The notes beneath the pieces were generated by a model. That model saw nothing but the letters and a program-made list of their open reading frames with translations. It did not search any database and was not told the DNA's origin. DNA of 64,000 bases from Bacteroides congonensis (lineage in GTDB: Bacteria; Bacteroidota; Bacteroidia; Bacteroidales; Bacteroidaceae): the NCBI RefSeq assembly GCF_900130125.1, contig NZ_FQXY01000011.1, forward strand, positions 1,430,748 to 1,494,747, read 5' to 3'. Below, one piece after another: positions 15,502 to 36,114 of the stretch (within the stretch, counting starts at the first letter, position 1; every line of letters begins with the position of its first letter). The position numbers and the translations under genes are program-made.

Positions 15502-15578
15502 CGTTGTATTAGCAAGATAATTGTAAAATCTTGATTGTATTGGGGCTGAAAAAGTTTTATTTTATAATATATGTTGAT

Positions 15579-15953
15579 ATGAAAGTATTAGTTTTAATTT
15601 CATTGGTAGGAGGTTTGTTGTTATCCTCTTGCGGGGGTAGCAGTTCAAAAAATAATGCAAATAATGAGAACGTAAATCCGGCAGATACAATCTATTTGGG
15701 CGACTTACGCGAAAAGTTTGCAGGAGATAGTGTTTTCTTTAAAGTAGTAGCGCCGGATTTGATGTTGATGGATTATCAATACTTCTGGGCGGCGACGGAA
15801 TCGGATGCAATAGGGAAAGGACTTACAAAAGAGTACTATAAACGCGTAAAGAAAGAAATCACCGATACGAACGAAGCTATCAAAAGAGGTGTGATGAAAG
15901 GTGCGAACGTAAAGCGCATACCGGATTTCCAGGCAGCTCAGGAAAGCAAATAA
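15579..15953 (+). CDS. Small lipoprotein of unknown function
   Basis: The ATG at 15579 gives 124 residues with a clear lipobox (LLSSC, Cys18) followed by a Ser/Asn-rich linker (GGSSSKNNANNENVN). The mature part is charged, about 90 residues, with DTIYLGDLREKFAGDSVFFKV and a Lys-rich C-terminal helix. I do not recognise the family. It stands alone between the HTCS and the ECF sigma gene, with its own promoter and a terminator directly after, so it is a monocistronic unit. It is much smaller than SGBPs and has no Ig-like repeats. A role in PUL sensing or envelope function is possible but unsupported. Confidence 0.75.
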   Translation: MKVLVLISLVGGLLLSSCGGSSSKNNANNENVNPADTIYLGDLREKFAGDSVFFKVVAPDLMLMDYQYFWAATESDAIGKGLTKEYYKRVKKEITDTNEAIKRGVMKGANVKRIPDFQAAQESK

Positions 15954-16000
15954 TACATCCTTCCGGATGAAAGGCTGTCATCCATGAAAATTTAAGAACA

Positions 16001-16036
16001 GGGGAACCGTCAATTGTAACGGCATCCCCTTTTTTA
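16001..16036 (+). terminator. Rho-independent terminator after small lipoprotein
   Basis: GGGGAACCGT (16001-16010) pairs imperfectly with ACGGCATCCCC (16019-16029) and is followed by seven T (16030-16035 region). It separates the lipoprotein from the sigma-led operon. Confidence 0.72.
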
Positions 16037-16132
16037 TTGCCCTGACGGTTGGAATTATCCCGATGAAATGGGAGATTTTTGCAAAATAACACGCTTGTTA
16101 CGATAGTTTTGTTATCTGTTACTTATGTGGTA

Positions 16133-28196: not shown

Positions 28197-31100
28197 ATGA
28201 AGAAATACATTTGCCTTTTATTACTTATACTGATAAACAACCTGCCGGGTGTAGCCGATACTACTTTCCGACTGAAAAAACTGCAAGTGGAATATGCGAC
28301 AACCCCGCTAGGGATTGATGTGGAGAAACCCCGTTTCAGTTGGCAGATGGAAGCGCTTACAGATGAAAGGGGATTGACACAAACAGCCCGCCAGATAATA
28401 GTGACTGATGAAGCTGGTACACAAGTATGGGATTCCCGAAAGATTGCCGACGATAAATCATTGAATATCGAATATGCCGGACTTCCCTTGAAAGCAACTA
28501 CACGCTATTTATGGACAGTTCGCGTATGGAACAACAAAAATGAGGAAACTTCCGCTTCTTCCTGGTTCGAAACCGGACTGATGAGTACCGACCGTACTTA
28601 TCAGGGATGGAGCGACGCCAAATGGATTGGAGGGGGAGAGGATGACAGGATGTTATACTCCCATTATCTTCCCGTTTTCAAGTTGAACTTTTCATTGCAG
28701 TTGGACAAGATTTCAAGAAGTACCCGTGCCGGATTCATCTATGGAGCCAATGACGAGCGTCTGATGGGGCAAAATAGGAATCTTTATCACTTGGAGAATA
28801 ATAAAGACGAATCGTATATAAAGATAGAGTTGGATATTGCTCCTTTGCTTTCCGGTAAGGAAGCCGTACTGAATGTATATAGGACTGGATATCACCCGAA
28901 TGATAAAAAAGAGGTTCCTTATAAAAGTTTCGCTGTTCCTCTGACAATCATCAATGAGGACAACAAATACGAACGTCATCATATAAGCCTTACTTCAGAA
29001 TTAGGTTTTACACGTTTTTATATAGATAATATCGACAAGGAAATAGGCTCGGTCAACTTGAATCCGTTAGGGCAGGGTGGTGATTTTATCGCTTTTCCGG
29101 TGGTCGGAGATATAGGTTATTCTGTCTCTGCCGGTCAATCCGCTTCCTTTTCAAAGGTAGAAATTGCGAATTTCAGAAGTCCCTCGAATGTGATAGCGGC
29201 AGTGCAGGTTGAAGATTACCGGATAGAAGGTGGTGCTTCCGGTACTCTTAAAACATTTACGCCAAAAGGTCATTCGGCTCCTATGCTCAGGACGGTCTTT
29301 GCCGCTTCAGATGCGAAAATAACTAAGGCGCGTTTATATGTAACATCACGTGGCATCTATGAAATTTATCTGAATGGCAGACGGATAGGGGATGATTACT
29401 TTAATCCCGGACTTACCCAATATAATAAGACTCATTTGTATCAGACGTTTGATGTCACAGAGCATATTCATTCTGGAAAGAACGCTCTCGGCGCTATATT
29501 GTCCGAAGGTTGGTGGAGTGGTGGAGCGACTTTTACAGGGGATAACTGGAATTTCTTCGGTGACTGCCAGTCTATCCTGGCAAAATTAGTTATCACTTAT
29601 GCGGACGGACAAGAAAAAGTGATTGTTTCCGACCCATCCACCTGGCAATGTTTCAACAGAGGGCCTGTGCTTTATGGCAGCTTCTTTCAAGGGGAAGTAT
29701 ACGATGCTTCGAGAGAGGTGGAAATAGAGGGATGGAGTACCCCCGCCTATAATGCATCCGGTTGGCATCCGGCCTGTGAAGTTACTTTGGACGGTCATAT
29801 TAGTACGGAAGGAAATCCGAATAAACCGAAAGTGGATGATTACTCTGATTTTGAACTTGTCGGGCAGTTTGGTCAGACGGTGAAGGCTATAAAAGAATTG
29901 ACTGCTCTGTCTGTGGAAGAAGTCCGTCCGGGTGTATTTGTTTATGATATGGGACAGAATATGGCAGGTGTGCCAAAAATCAACCTGTCCGGAATGAAGC
30001 CCGGAACGAAGATAAATTTGCGTTTTGCGGAAGTGAAATATCCCAATCTTCCGGAGTATGAAAGTAATATCGGCATGATAATGCTTGAGAATATCCGTGC
30101 AGCTATGGCACAGGATATTTATATAACGAAAGGTGGTGAAGAAACAATCCTTCCCCGGTTTACCTATCACGGTTATCGCTTTGTAGAAATTACCGGTATT
30201 GAAAAGGCATTGCCTGTGGATGCGGTGAAAGGTATAGTACTTAGTTCCATTCATGAGCTTTCTTCTCATTATGAGACATCCAATGCGAAAGTAAACAAAC
30301 TTTGGGAGAATATTACATGGTCTTCGTATGCCAATTTCATGTCTGTCCCTACGGATTGTCCGCAGAGGAATGAACGTTTGGGTTGGACAGGGGATATTTC
30401 CGTCTTTTCCCGAACTGCTACCTATTTGGCAGATGTCCCGCAATTTCTGAGAAGATATCTTCGATCTATGCGAGATGTGCAGCGCAAGGACGGACGTTTT
30501 CCTGATATCGCCCCTTTGGGTGGTGGATTTGGCGGAGTTCTGTGGGGAAGCGCCGGAATCACGGTACCTTGGGAATGTTACCAACAATATGGAGACAAAA
30601 CACTGTTGAATGAGCATTACGACTCAATGAAACGGTATATTTCCTACATCCTTAATGAAACAATCGACCCGAAGACGAATTTGCTTGTCCAATACAGGGC
30701 ATGGGGAGATTTAGGTGACTGGTTGGGGCTTGAGGACTCAAAGAATGATAAGTCACTCTTATGGGAAGCTTACTTCCTCTATGATTTGGAACTGATGAAT
30801 AAGATTGCAACTGTCTTGGGCAAAACCGCTGACGCTGAATGGTTTCAGAAACTTCATGCTGTTAGAAAAGCTTTCTTCAACAAAACCTATATACAACCTG
30901 GTACTTGCAAAACTGTCTTTTCCGCTTTTATTCCTGAAAAGCAAGGGACATTGGTGGATACACAAACATCCTATGTACTTCCATTGGTCTTTGGTATTGT
31001 TGAGGAAGATAACAAGCCGCAGTTCATTCATAATTTGATCGAAACAATTTCTTCTTATTCACTCATGACTGGTTTCATCGGAACTGCTTGGATTAGCAAA

Positions 31101-31805
31101 GCATTGTCGGACAATGGCTACAGTGATATGGCATACAGGCTGTTACAGCAAACCAGTTATCCTTCCTGGCTGTATTCGGTAGAGCAGGGAGCTACCACGA
31201 TATGGGAAAGATTGAACTCCTATACCCACGAAGATGGATTCGGAGGAAATAACCGCATGAACTCATTCAACCATTATTCTTTTGGGGCGGTCGGTGCATG
31301 GATGTACAATCGTTCTCTAGGAATAGAGCGGGATGAAAACTCCCCCGGATTCAAGCATTTTGTGTTGAGGCCGGAAGTAGATACGACTGGTGGCATGACT
31401 TACGCAAAGGGATATTATAATTCGATGTATGGGCGTATTGAAAGCAGTTGGAAAAAGGAAAACGATGTAGTTGCCTACCAATTCACAGTTCCTGCCAATA
31501 CGACTGCCCGGTTATATCTGCCGGCTGTTTCAGTAAAGAAGATAACCGAAGGGAATAAATCTTTAAAGAAGAGCAAAGGAGTGGAGTATGTCGACATGAA
31601 GGATGGAAAGGTGATATTGGAACTTTCGTCAGGTAGTTATTCTTTTGAGATTGGCATGCAGGATAAATTACTTTTTACCCCTGATGCAGATGAGTTATGG
31701 AACGGTGATATTGCAGAACAAGTAGTGGGGCAGGAATTACTGGGAGCCACTGTAACTTTTGGAGAGAAAAGAATGTTTTGGGTACGGGATGCACGTAATT
31801 CGTAA
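28197..31805 (+). CDS. GH78 alpha-L-rhamnosidase with a captured foreign C-terminus
   Basis: 1202 residues with an N-terminal signal peptide. The domain order is an Ig-like domain (about 22-125), an inserted beta-sandwich (about 150-335, LamG/DUF1080-like), the rhamnosidase N-terminal domain (about 355-500, FNPGLTQYNK, GWWSGG), a further beta-domain, then the six-hairpin barrel. Catalytic residues are the general acid Glu726 in CPQRNERLGWTGD and the general base Glu1004 in TTIWERLNSY, both present. It would release alpha-L-rhamnose. The natural end appears to be SGSYSFEI near residue 1152. The remaining ~50 residues match the middle of a DUF4143 ATPase domain, and the stop at 31803 lies inside that foreign piece. 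It starts a new transcription unit behind the phased repeat array. Confidence 0.9.
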   Translation: MKKYICLLLLILINNLPGVADTTFRLKKLQVEYATTPLGIDVEKPRFSWQMEALTDERGLTQTARQIIVTDEAGTQVWDSRKIADDKSLNIEYAGLPLKATTRYLWTVRVWNNKNEETSASSWFETGLMSTDRTYQGWSDAKWIGGGEDDRMLYSHYLPVFKLNFSLQLDKISRSTRAGFIYGANDERLMGQNRNLYHLENNKDESYIKIELDIAPLLSGKEAVLNVYRTGYHPNDKKEVPYKSFAVPLTIINEDNKYERHHISLTSELGFTRFYIDNIDKEIGSVNLNPLGQGGDFIAFPVVGDIGYSVSAGQSASFSKVEIANFRSPSNVIAAVQVEDYRIEGGASGTLKTFTPKGHSAPMLRTVFAASDAKITKARLYVTSRGIYEIYLNGRRIGDDYFNPGLTQYNKTHLYQTFDVTEHIHSGKNALGAILSEGWWSGGATFTGDNWNFFGDCQSILAKLVITYADGQEKVIVSDPSTWQCFNRGPVLYGSFFQGEVYDASREVEIEGWSTPAYNASGWHPACEVTLDGHISTEGNPNKPKVDDYSDFELVGQFGQTVKAIKELTALSVEEVRPGVFVYDMGQNMAGVPKINLSGMKPGTKINLRFAEVKYPNLPEYESNIGMIMLENIRAAMAQDIYITKGGEETILPRFTYHGYRFVEITGIEKALPVDAVKGIVLSSIHELSSHYETSNAKVNKLWENITWSSYANFMSVPTDCPQRNERLGWTGDISVFSRTATYLADVPQFLRRYLRSMRDVQRKDGRFPDIAPLGGGFGGVLWGSAGITVPWECYQQYGDKTLLNEHYDSMKRYISYILNETIDPKTNLLVQYRAWGDLGDWLGLEDSKNDKSLLWEAYFLYDLELMNKIATVLGKTADAEWFQKLHAVRKAFFNKTYIQPGTCKTVFSAFIPEKQGTLVDTQTSYVLPLVFGIVEEDNKPQFIHNLIETISSYSLMTGFIGTAWISKALSDNGYSDMAYRLLQQTSYPSWLYSVEQGATTIWERLNSYTHEDGFGGNNRMNSFNHYSFGAVGAWMYNRSLGIERDENSPGFKHFVLRPEVDTTGGMTYAKGYYNSMYGRIESSWKKENDVVAYQFTVPANTTARLYLPAVSVKKITEGNKSLKKSKGVEYVDMKDGKVILELSSGSYSFEIGMQDKLLFTPDADELWNGDIAEQVVGQELLGATVTFGEKRMFWVRDARNS

Positions 31806-32066
31806 GCGGAGGTTGATTTTGTTTATAGGTTTAACTCTCATTTATTGCCGATAGAAGTTAAGACCGGGGATAATTCAAAATTACGCTCTTTGCATCAGTT
31901 TATGAATGACTCGAAAGAGACTGTGGCTTTGCGTCTGTGGAATGGGATTTTATGCTCGGATGTAATCAAACTACCTGATGGCAAAAAATATACGTTGTAT
32001 AATATACCCTTTTATTACGCAGGACAATTGGAAACATTCTTGAAAAATAGGGTTTCGTTGCAATAG
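31653..32066 (+). pseudogene. Remnant of an AAA+/DUF4143 ATPase gene (C-terminal part)
   Basis: From about 31653 the frame encodes GMQDKLLFTPDADELWNGD, IAEQVVGQELLG and FWVRDARNS, then a TAA at 31803, then in the same frame AEVDFVYRFNSHLLPIEVKTG and KLRSLHQFM, ending at 32066. This continuous pattern (IAEQ.VGQELL, FWVR, AEVDFV, PIEVK.G) is the C-terminal half of the DUF4143 domain found behind an AAA ATPase in bacterial proteins of unknown function. The ATPase part is absent. One nonsense codon now splits the remnant: the first part is fused to the GH78 protein, and the second is untranslated or needs the TTG at 31845. It is dead as an ATPase. Confidence 0.8.
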
Positions 32067-32320
32067 AATGAAGAGTTAACTTAACGTAAAGGTGTAACTG
32101 AACCTATATAAATACGTTCTATTTTCAAGGAATTGTCGTTCATTTCTAATAGCCCTGTTACTGCCTGTCGGCTATTTCTGCTGTATAGTGAATTATTGAG
32201 TCTCTTGATTACGAATCGGATACATTATTCAATAGGTGTATAGAGGTTTCTGTTCGTATTTAAATATAGAAACATACATAAAATGGTCTATTAATATTGC
32301 TAATTGAATAAGATTTGAAC

Positions 32321-32881
32321 ATGATGAAAAAGTGTATTTTGCTATTCTTGTTTACATTGATGAACTGGTCGTTTTACGCACAAGAGTATCCGAAAGTTAT
32401 TATTCCGGGAGATTATCCTGACCCAAGTATTATACGCGACGGGGAGGATTATTATATGACTCATTCACCGTTCTATTATGCTCCCGGCTTTTTGATATGG
32501 CATTCCCGTGATTTGGTAAACTGGGAACCAATGTGCCGCGCCCTGACAGATTGGAAAGGTTCGGCTATGGCTCCTGATCTGGTAAAGTACAAGGGTAAGT
32601 TCTATATATATTATCCTGCTGCCGGAACTAATTGGGTGATTTGGGCAAATGATATTCAGGGGCCGTGGAGCAAGCCTGTTGATTTAAAGATTGGGGGGAT
32701 TGATCCGGGACATATTGCTGACGAAAACGGTAATCGTTATCTGTATGTCAATGAAGGTGAAGTGATTCGTCTGACCGATGACGGATTGGCTACTATCGGA
32801 GAAAAAAAGCGGTTTATACCGGTTGGGAATATCCCCAAAAATGGAATACAGAATGTATGTGCCTGGAATCTCCGAAGTTAA
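32321..32881 (+). CDS. GH43 enzyme, N-terminal fragment (frameshifted)
   Basis: Starts at ATG 32321 with signal peptide MMKKCILLFLFTLMNWSFYAQ. It encodes the first blades of a GH43 five-bladed propeller: IPGDYPDPSIIRDG with the catalytic base Asp, then GSAMAPDLVKY and GGIDPGH. The frame runs off near the CCCCAAAAA run at 32833-32841 and ends at 32881. The continuation with the catalytic Glu (CLESPKL) is in the -1 frame and is annotated as the next entry. Restoring one A to the A5 run would rejoin them. As it stands this is a ~187-residue inactive fragment. About 250 bases upstream (32067-32320) hold no clear gene. Confidence 0.8.
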   Translation: MMKKCILLFLFTLMNWSFYAQEYPKVIIPGDYPDPSIIRDGEDYYMTHSPFYYAPGFLIWHSRDLVNWEPMCRALTDWKGSAMAPDLVKYKGKFYIYYPAAGTNWVIWANDIQGPWSKPVDLKIGGIDPGHIADENGNRYLYVNEGEVIRLTDDGLATIGEKKRFIPVGNIPKNGIQNVCAWNLRS

Positions 32882-34815
32882 ATTACAGAGATGGTTATTA
32901 TTATATGACTTCCGCCCAAGGCGGGACTGCCGGACCTGCTACAAGCCACATGGTTGTTGCTGCCCGTTCTAAAAGTCCGCTCGGACCGTGGGAGAATTCT
33001 CCATACAATCCTATTGTACATACTTATAGTTCACGTGATAACTGGTGGTCGAAAGGGCATGGTACACTAATAGATGACATAAATGGAAATTGGTGGATTG
33101 TGTATCATGCTTATGCGAAAGGTTATCATACCCTAGGACGTCAGACTTTAATAGAACCTATTGAATGGACAACGGATGGCTGGTACCGTACCAAAACTAC
33201 TGCTACTCCGATTAGGTCGGATAAACAAATCAAGCATGGAATAGAGTTGTCTGATGACTTTAGCGAAGCAAGTTTAGGACTCCAATGGACTTTCTGGAAA
33301 GAATATGCCCCGAAATCTTTGACTTTAGATAATGGCACCCTTTGGATAAAGGCTAAGGGAAGTACTCCTGCTAACGGACGCCTGCTTCTGACAACTGCCG
33401 AAGATAAGAATTATGAAACCCAAGTAGAGATAAATACCGGCAACGGGAATACAGCCGGACTTATCTTATTTTATAATGAAAAGGCATATGCGGGTGTTGT
33501 TTCTGACGGAAAGAAGTTTATTGTATATCAGAATACAAACAAGCAACTGGAATTACCTAATGAGTTGGGTAAACGTTTTATTGCTAAAATCCATAATCAG
33601 GGTAACAATCTGCGTATAATGGTGAGCAAAGATAGTAAGGAGTGGATTACCCTTGCGGAAAAAGTTGATGTGTCACAAATGCACCACAATAATTATCATG
33701 GCTTCTATGCCTTGCGTATAGGATTGTTGTCTGCCGGAAAGGGAGCTGCCGGATTTAAACAGTTCCGATATAAGAATGCCATTCCACGGGAAAAAGACAT
33801 GAGTGCTTATCTCATGGTATTCCACAAGGACGAGACGCATGGGCTTTATATGGCTATCAGTCGTGACGGTTATACATTTACGGCATTGAATGATGCAGAG
33901 CCGGTTATTGCCGGAGATACGATTGCTTGTCAGAGAGGTATTCGTGATCCGCATATTTATCGTGGACCGGATGGCGCTTTTTATTTGGCAATGACAGACT
34001 TGCACGTATTTGCAAAACGTGACGGTTATCGGGAGACTGAATGGGAACGTGATGGGAAAATGTATGGTTGGGGAAATAACCGTGGACTCGTGTTGATGAA
34101 ATCATGGGATTTGGTTAACTGGAAACGTGCGAATATCCGTTTTAATAAGTTAACGGCAGGATTGAGTGAAATAGGTTGTGCATGGGCTCCGGAAGTAACA
34201 TATAATGAAAAGCAAGGAAAACTGATGATTTATTACACGATGCGTTTTAGAAATGAAGCGAACAAACTGTATTATGTATATGTAAATGATGACTTTGATA
34301 CCATTGAAAGTTTGCCGCAGATTTTGTTTGAATATCCTAATGAGGATGTTTCTGCTATTGATGGAGACATTACGAAAGTGGGGGATAAATATCACTTGTT
34401 CTATGTCGCCCACGATGGGACGGCAGGAATCAAGCAAGCAGTTTCGAATCGTGTGAATAGGGATTATGAGTATGACCCGCGCTGGTATGATTTTGAGCCT
34501 AAAGCTTGTGAGGCTCCTACTGTATGGAAGCGCATCGGTGAAGATAAATGGGTATTGATGTATGATGTATATAGTGTGACCCCTCACAATTTCGGTTTTA
34601 TTGAAACATCGGACTTTGTGAACTTTAAAAACTTGGGACGTTTCAATGAAGGAGTAATGAAAACTACTAATTATAGTGCTCCCAAACATGGTGCAGTCAT
34701 CCATCTGACTGCTGAAGAAGCTGATAAACTCGAGAAATATTGGCAGAAGAATAAAAGGAAATTTGTACCTATGACATCTGTCGAAGTTGCACAAAACAAC
34801 AGGAACGGCGAATGA
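32857..34815 (+). CDS. GH43 enzyme, C-terminal part with second GH43 domain (frameshifted)
   Basis: The -1-frame continuation of the fragment above. An ATG at 32857 exists but lies inside the catalytic domain, so independent translation would give a truncated protein without signal peptide. It holds the rest of GH43 domain 1 (catalytic Glu in CLESPKL, then SAQGGTAGPATSHMV, WWSKGHGTL), a beta-sandwich (about 125-310; DDFSEASLGLQW), and a second GH43-like propeller (about 320-620; RGIRDPHIYRGPDG with Asp, WAPEVTYNEKQ with Glu, AIDGDITKVGDKYHLFY), similar to GH43_34. The full ancestral protein was about 830 residues with two propellers, probably an arabinofuranosidase, xylosidase or galactosidase. 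It is either a pseudogene, a phase-variable gene or a sequencing error. Confidence 0.82.
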   Translation: MCLESPKLNYRDGYYYMTSAQGGTAGPATSHMVVAARSKSPLGPWENSPYNPIVHTYSSRDNWWSKGHGTLIDDINGNWWIVYHAYAKGYHTLGRQTLIEPIEWTTDGWYRTKTTATPIRSDKQIKHGIELSDDFSEASLGLQWTFWKEYAPKSLTLDNGTLWIKAKGSTPANGRLLLTTAEDKNYETQVEINTGNGNTAGLILFYNEKAYAGVVSDGKKFIVYQNTNKQLELPNELGKRFIAKIHNQGNNLRIMVSKDSKEWITLAEKVDVSQMHHNNYHGFYALRIGLLSAGKGAAGFKQFRYKNAIPREKDMSAYLMVFHKDETHGLYMAISRDGYTFTALNDAEPVIAGDTIACQRGIRDPHIYRGPDGAFYLAMTDLHVFAKRDGYRETEWERDGKMYGWGNNRGLVLMKSWDLVNWKRANIRFNKLTAGLSEIGCAWAPEVTYNEKQGKLMIYYTMRFRNEANKLYYVYVNDDFDTIESLPQILFEYPNEDVSAIDGDITKVGDKYHLFYVAHDGTAGIKQAVSNRVNRDYEYDPRWYDFEPKACEAPTVWKRIGEDKWVLMYDVYSVTPHNFGFIETSDFVNFKNLGRFNEGVMKTTNYSAPKHGAVIHLTAEEADKLEKYWQKNKRKFVPMTSVEVAQNNRNGE

Positions 34816-34926: not shown

Positions 34927-36114
34927 TTATAGTTTTATCTGTCGTCCTTTCTCATCATCCACCACAGCCATCATCCCTTCCACTTGTGCCAGAGCCAACA
35001 TACGCCCGTGGAAAGAATATCCCGGATTATATCCTTTATCTTCGTCTCCAAGCATCATCCGTCCATGGTCTACACGCATGGGCAGTCCCGGATTTTCCTT
35101 TTCAAAGATACGGATAAGGTCAATCAAATGTCCCCGTCCTGTGAGATGGGAACTTTCAATGAAGTTTCCGCCCGGCATGGCAGCCGTGCTACGCAGATGT
35201 ACAAAGTGTGTGCGTCTGGCAAATTTCTTTGCCAGTTCACGGGTATCGTTATGTTCACCTGCACTCAAAGAACCTGCACAGAAAGTCAGTCCGTTATGTG
35301 GATTATCTACGGCATTCAGGAACCATTCAATATCACTTTCATTGGTGACAATGCGTGGTAATCCCAGGACTTGGAATGGCGGGTCGTCAGGATGTACGCA
35401 CATATTAACTCCATATTCTTCGCATACGGGCATGATTGCAGATAAGAAATAACGCATATTTTCACGCAAAGCATCCCGGTCTATATCTTTGTACAGAGCA
35501 AGTAACCGCTTGAAGATGGCAACCGGATTTTTATCCCCTTCTTTGATATTACCGTTGACAAAACCTTGAGTCTTGACAATGATGGTATCAATCAGTGCGT
35601 CTTTCTCTGCATCTGTGATTACCTTATCCAACTCGGCAACTTTCTGAAGTTCTTCTTCGGTATAATCTTTTTCTGCTCCTTCACGTTCCAGGATTCGGAT
35701 ATCGAAATAAGCAAAACGGATACGGTCGTAATAAAGTGAACTGGTTCCGTCCGGCCAGGGGTGTTGCAAGTCTGTACGTATCCAGTCGATAACGGGCATG
35801 AAGTTGTAACACACTGTCCTTATGCCGCATTTACCCAAATTGGCAAGGCTTACTTTGTAGTTTTCAATCAACTGTTCACGTTCCGCTCCTGCGTATTTGA
35901 TTGCTTCGCATACAGGAAGACTTTCCACTACCGACCAACGCAAGCCGTATGATTCGATGTATGATTTCAAATCATTAATAGCTTCCATTGTCCATATTTC
36001 ACCGTTCGGTACATCATGCAGGGCAGTGACAATCCCTTCTACCCCTATCTGTCGGAGCATCGGCAGGGTTATCTTGTCCTTTTTGCCGAACCATCTCCAT
36101 GTCTTTTCCATCAT
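34927..36114 (-). CDS. uxuA: Mannonate dehydratase
   Basis: 395 residues from ATG 36114 (ATG 36111 also possible), the usual length for UxuA. Recognisable motifs are WRWFGKKDKITLPMLRQIGVEGIVTALHD at the start (given here only as a start landmark), CVHPDDPP around residue 235, FCAGSLSAG, FVHLRST and MRVDHGRMMLGD near the C-terminus, which supply metal and substrate ligands. The cytoplasmic enzyme converts D-mannonate to 2-keto-3-deoxygluconate, the last step before the KDG branch of D-glucuronate catabolism. It follows the SDR gene by 40 bases in one operon, divergent from an AraC regulator. Its presence links the region to uronic-acid-containing glycans. Confidence 0.96.
   Translation of the reverse strand: MMEKTWRWFGKKDKITLPMLRQIGVEGIVTALHDVPNGEIWTMEAINDLKSYIESYGLRWSVVESLPVCEAIKYAGAEREQLIENYKVSLANLGKCGIRTVCYNFMPVIDWIRTDLQHPWPDGTSSLYYDRIRFAYFDIRILEREGAEKDYTEEELQKVAELDKVITDAEKDALIDTIIVKTQGFVNGNIKEGDKNPVAIFKRLLALYKDIDRDALRENMRYFLSAIMPVCEEYGVNMCVHPDDPPFQVLGLPRIVTNESDIEWFLNAVDNPHNGLTFCAGSLSAGEHNDTRELAKKFARRTHFVHLRSTAAMPGGNFIESSHLTGRGHLIDLIRIFEKENPGLPMRVDHGRMMLGDEDKGYNPGYSFHGRMLALAQVEGMMAVVDDEKGRQIKL

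Follow-up and report, generated by a model that had tools for sequence, protein, structure and literature searches.

A rhamnosidase reading frame running into the remnant of an ATPase gene at a variable locus border of Bacteroides congonensis

Gene fusion by deletion or by loss of a stop codon, together with a truncated neighbour, is a known type of event. The locus described here, located in a 64,000-nucleotide stretch of Bacteroides congonensis DNA (called the window), resembles the general case of fusion by stop loss: the stop codon of the upstream gene is gone, the downstream gene is beheaded, and the hybrid reads to the next in-frame stop. The first parent is a GH78 alpha-L-rhamnosidase, for which the solved relatives 3w5m/3w5n, 6i60 and 6gsz were found with the B. 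finegoldii orthologue L064 as the query. Compared with the known GH78 enzymes, the window protein has lost 12 residues of the six-hairpin domain and carries 50 foreign residues at its C-terminus. The second parent belongs to the AAA_14-DUF4143 ATPases (PF13173 and PF13635), and the gap-free alignment of the window piece with seven members indicates common descent. Unlike these ATPases, the piece is devoid of the AAA_14 domain, corresponds to approximately the last 30% only, and contains a stop codon. A literature search for DUF4143 with Bacteroides retrieved no papers, and none of the titles listed in other searches dealt with the present case. The features of the locus are listed in Table 1.

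Table 1. Coordinates of the features at and around the junction (positions in the window).
Feature	Position	Strand	Remarks
Left anchor: small lipoprotein-like gene and downstream stretch	15556–16056	+	83% identical to the stretch immediately left of the lipoprotein-like gene in G106
GH78 alpha-L-rhamnosidase proper	28197–31652	+	residues 1–1152; own stop codon absent
12-residue (36-bp) in-frame deletion in the GH78 six-hairpin domain	31049–31056, around 31052/31053	+	from orthologue alignments
C-terminal extension of GH78: 50 codons derived from the DUF4143 ATPase gene, closed by TAA 31803–31805	31653–31805	+	
3′ remainder of the DUF4143 ATPase gene downstream of that stop, frame unchanged; presumably not translated	31806–32066	+	stop 32064–32066
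Relic of the G106 lipoprotein-like gene	32078–32216	-	84 bp of its 3′ end and 55 bp from further upstream
Frameshifted GH43 gene	32315–34815	+	pieces 32315–32881 and 32857–34815
Right anchor: conserved dehydratase gene	34927–36114	-	synteny with relatives

The end of the rhamnosidase frame

The GH78 ORF extended from position 28197 to 31805 (1202 aa) and ended with SGSYSFEI, the usual GH78 end, followed by GMQDKLLFTPDADELWNGDIAEQVVGQELLGATVTFGEKRMFWVRDARNS and the stop codon. Five Pfam GH78 domains (PF17389, PF08531, PF05592, PF17390 and PF25788) were above their cut-offs in this ORF, the six-hairpin catalytic domain as well as the flanking ones. The orthologues of the genus were 60–88% identical to the window sequence, and the dN/dS of 0.089 calculated against the orthologue of genome G086 indicated purifying selection. 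DNA homology to the three closest orthologues stopped at positions 31649, 31647 and 31651 (L043, L044 and L045, respectively) and homology to DUF4143 started at 31652, the switch from one parent to the other taking place within 1–5 bp. Translation and homology bore out an earlier reading made from the letters of the DNA (hereafter the sequence-only reading), according to which the GH78 frame runs into DUF4143 sequence, meets a TAA at 31803 and resumes as AEVDFVY and PIEVKTG; beyond the TAA the frame stayed open up to the stop codon at 32064–32066. The approximately 50 foreign residues announced by the same reading corresponded to 50 codons of ATPase origin. They were absent from nine of nine orthologues in an alignment of the window with these sequences (A1), showing that these GH78 orthologues do not share the tail. 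Other short C-terminal additions, of up to 23 residues, existed in four of the nine. The tail was likewise absent from all ten orthologues that were read to their end, a count which leaves out loci L021–L024.

Upstream of the junction, the window GH78 lacked 12 residues after residue 952. All 12 columns were filled in the 15 orthologues of a second alignment (A2), and the gap was unique to the window among 18 aligned sequences (the window and 17 orthologues, with the omission of L063 and L064, which look identical to L045 and L044, respectively, and have the same ORF length, of L083, which has no ORF of 600 aa, and of L075, L080–L082 and L084). Four of the 323 columns invariant in the 17 orthologues were changed in the window, three of them by the deletion; the orthologues, held out singly, changed 0–24 invariant columns, none through a gap. 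At the same site 3w5m and 6i60, as aligned with L064, are also short, by 9 residues compared with that orthologue. For this reason, and in view of the low GH78 dN/dS, the deletion need not be fatal.

The remnant of the ATPase gene

From position 31652 onward the DNA matched the 3′ 30% of an AAA_14-DUF4143 ATPase gene, with 73–77% identity in the five nearest genomes (77% in G042, 75% in G113 and 73–74% in G073, G057 and G087). At the protein level, the DUF4143 match on which the sequence-only reading depended for the residues after 1152 was present: the remnant was 69–78% identical to the seven nearest loci (L004–L010) over 129–135 residues. It corresponds approximately to the C-terminal 135 residues of a protein some 450 residues long, the match starting near residue 320 of 454 in L053. 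The pieces flanking the stop codon do join as a DUF4143 C-terminus, since positions 31653–32039 aligned without a gap over 129 codons with the C-terminal part of the seven relatives, and the TAA sat at a column holding one same residue in all seven. The joined pieces are not the C-terminal half that had been proposed, but about 30% of the protein. For the four nearest relatives in the first draw of 99 genus genomes the E values ranged from 1.2e-74 to 1.3e-62, which excludes a chance match. Neither piece alone reached the Pfam cut-off (0 families for 31653–31802; DUF4143 with E 0.16 and 12.2 bits, against a cut-off of 28.1, for 31806–32063), so the DUF4143 identity is taken from the whole relatives, two of which were tested and carry both AAA_14 and DUF4143 (PF13635, E 3.1e-20 and 6.3e-18). 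Judged by its sequence, the window piece is no longer an ATPase gene and is a relic only.

This stump is little decayed. It kept 78 of the 81 columns that are invariant in the seven relatives, the losses being one before the stop, one at the stop and one after it; intact relatives, each held out in turn, kept 81/81 to 81/87. When the window was compared with the relatives, silent sites were saturated or nearly so, and the replacement distance was 0.13 to G113 and to G042. Nearly all the divergence thus accrued under constraint; the truncation is therefore recent, and the gene was a working one until a short time ago. Because the sequence downstream of the stop is conserved to the same degree as that upstream of it, this conservation is not evidence for selection on the GH78 tail.

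The proposal that a rearrangement joined a stop-less GH78 to an ATPase gene deprived of its 5′ part, and that the hybrid ends at an in-frame nonsense codon, was supported. The joining may have preceded the nonsense mutation, as the sequence-only reading has it. In the opposite order, the nonsense codon would have arisen in the ATPase gene before its joining to GH78; no evidence speaks directly against this order, nothing in the sequence dates one event relative to the other, one invariant column being changed on each side of the stop, and this order falls only a little short of even odds.

The same data bear on a possible role of the tail, which would then be a kept and useful C-terminal addition to GH78, such as a new fused domain or a linker. 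The joining in frame, the purifying selection on the whole GH78 and the change of just one relative-invariant column in the first 50 codons would agree with such a role. Against it, the tail represents only a short portion of a domain and has no predicted fold, the equal conservation after the stop is explained by a recent origin, and the joined tail was present in no other genome searched; a useful tail is therefore most unlikely. In the structure model of residues 690–1202 (16 sequences) the mean pLDDT was 71.6, and the last 45 residues were below 50 with block means of 25–36. This low value says little, as the model is that of a fragment with the tail present in the window row alone of the 16 sequences; stretches which we take to be the GH78 active-site ones were also below 50. 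A young working hybrid, in which a piece of the ATPase C-terminus was recruited as a rhamnosidase tail (e.g., for release, anchoring or partner binding) at a border making such hybrids repeatedly, is barely credible.

The junction and the border in related genomes

The sequence-only reading had called for a search for short homology near 31650. Such homology was rejected, as 0–1 base was shared at the junction 31651/31652 (by eye); the shared bases were read from relatives and not from the true parents, and end joining is thus unproven. A 24-bp imperfect direct repeat (31596–31619 and 31690–31713) was located away from the junction and was set aside as chance. The search for a terminator at the border found none.

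The relic of the lipoprotein-like gene, unseen in the sequence-only reading like the GH78 deletion and the GH43 frameshift, started 11 bp after the DUF4143 piece, between the ATPase stop and GH43. Its two parts (32078–32161, 82% of 84 bp; 32162–32216, 71% of 55 bp) corresponded to two parts of one gene of 281 aa in genome G106, approximately 535 bp of which are missing between them. The first 26 bp of the second part matched at 23/26, a level that none of 20000 shuffles reached in the rest of the gene. The 281-aa gene looks lipoprotein-like by eye and its Pfam match to PF13629 was just below the cut-off. Among the 158 genus genomes it existed at high identity in G106 only, followed by G092 and G157 with 42–43%. 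In G106 the small lipoprotein-like gene is followed directly on its right by the lipoprotein-like gene, itself directly beside the dehydratase gene, which we take from sequence resemblance to be the mannonate dehydratase gene uxuA. As the small gene and the dehydratase gene are common to the window and G106, the window locus with GH28 and GH78, presumably a polysaccharide-utilisation locus (PUL) judging by sequence similarity and the order of its genes, occupies what in G106 is a gap of about 105 bp. Compared with G106, the ATPase stump occupies the right edge of the PUL and is followed by the relic, GH43 and the dehydratase gene, in this order.

Could the whole arrangement be an assembly or sequencing artefact, with a contig wrongly joined at 31652, a spurious stop codon at 31803, or both? 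The comparison set comprised one genome per species, and the GH43 gene is broken near a run of A (about 32808), a common place for a sequencing error. The junction, by contrast, lies inside a 1.85-Mb contig, the relic of a gene found at this place in G106 follows at once, and the genome itself has no second copy of the tail that could have been joined by mistake. An artefact is accordingly very unlikely. The GH43 gene is a single 816-aa ORF in G086 and G053. Its larger piece had a dN/dS of 0.07 against G086, which indicates that the break is recent or a sequencing error; the value of 0.122 for the N piece is probably too high because some 16 codons after the frameshift were included.

The border differed between relatives. 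In G086, which shares 83–88% identity with the window around the site, only 230 bp separate GH78 from an intact GH43, and the dehydratase gene comes after both; in G092 the dehydratase gene comes directly after GH78. G009, whose dehydratase gene and adjoining gene are 96% identical to those of the window, has nothing of GH78 but a 32-bp scrap between GH28 and the dehydratase gene (L141, 14328–14591), a further deletion at this border. In G053 the order is opposite to that of G086: GH43 comes first, then a 142–166-bp scrap of the GH78 3′ end, then the dehydratase gene (L147, 12782–13355). G106 and G001 have no counterpart of the window's PUL in the interval from the small gene to the dehydratase gene. 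The different borders of G086, G092, G009 and G053 support repeated cutting and joining at this place.

Searching with positions 31600–32330, 15 of the 158 genus genomes (full draw) gave a match: the own genome, G086 for the GH78 end and GH43 start only, G106 for the lipoprotein-like relic only, and 12 genomes for the ATPase part. The tail DNA itself was matched in 10 of the 99 genomes of the first draw, the own one included. Several sources of the piece were considered and rejected: a donor copy in the own genome, where the tail search gave only a 38% match with E 1.8 besides the window (the genome has nine PF13635 matches, seven above the cut-off); a closer donor among the 158 genus genomes, the best reaching 77% DNA identity; and a plasmid, with one record at 67% for the piece after the stop. 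Eight of the 399 genomes of the family draw showed a match, the own genome included, the best outside the genus being 68%. At E 1e-5, the 12 ATPase loci, 6 to 18 kb in length, gave no match to GH78, to either of the two lipoprotein-like genes or to the dehydratase gene; in one of them, L055, the contig breaks off inside the ATPase gene. Neither the 158 genomes nor the 12 loci offered an intermediate in which an intact ATPase gene adjoins GH78 or the lipoprotein-like gene, and the loci thus lend no support to a single deletion between two neighbouring genes. Four of the 12 loci (L052, L053, L054 and L096) carry a GH28 gene at a distance of approximately 5–6 kb from the ATPase gene, its product being 47–48% identical to that of the window gene, so relatives of the ATPase also exist near PUL-type genes; the genomes concerned are G042, G057, G073 and G113. 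The ATPase relative in L052 (6584–8798, genome G073) is itself cut short, and two ORFs resembling a transposase pair were seen by eye just upstream.

These comparisons concern the provenance of the ATPase gene, which may have been an old resident of the interval. It is possible, though doubtful, that an ATPase-lipoprotein segment was instead inserted between adjacent GH78 and GH43 genes, the G086 order being ancestral, or that the ATPase came with the PUL. The short GH78–GH43 spacing in G086 and its high identity around the site would fit an insertion, and the GH28 gene near the ATPase relatives in four genomes would fit an arrival with the PUL; the absence of the ATPase piece from the 16-kb stretch of G106 is neutral on the latter. 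An insertion is opposed by the relic, which, as expected of a resident, occupies the position it has in G106, with the small gene to its left and the dehydratase gene on the other side. In addition, the window lacks the approximately 140 bp that follow GH78 in G086, indicating a replacement and no clean insertion.

A proposed history and its comparison with known fusions

We propose that the hybrid ORF is an accidental product of decay, a scar at a worn and repeatedly rearranged locus border, and give this reading a probability of approximately 85%. The PUL with GH28 and GH78 would have entered, or grown at, the interval between the two lipoprotein-like genes beside the dehydratase gene. Its right border would afterwards have been cut and rejoined without long homology, by end joining or another illegitimate recombination. 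One joining would have taken away the GH78 stop and the first approximately 320 codons of the AAA_14-DUF4143 ATPase gene. It would have kept the frame, as expected by chance in one case out of three, so that GH78 would read 50 ATPase codons up to the nonsense codon. The relic, the GH78 deletion and the GH43 frameshift are what turn a single fusion into such a border. The frame kept over 137 codons with one stop and the GH78 dN/dS of 0.089 count against the proposed decay, as does the absence of an intermediate from the 158 genomes and the 12 loci. The 50-residue tail is probably a passenger sequence, tolerated without being of any use, or else GH78 itself is being lost.

For annotation, the C-terminal 50 residues of the GH78 product should not be counted as rhamnosidase sequence, and the GH78 and GH43 genes of this locus may not work. 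The locus offers a clean example of how a border exchanging sugar-utilisation genes leaves beheaded genes and hybrid ORFs. The hybrid ORF is real and the event is of a known kind; beyond the general fusion case, it took place here at a PUL border where GH78 also carries a deletion, GH43 is frameshifted and another gene has left a relic.
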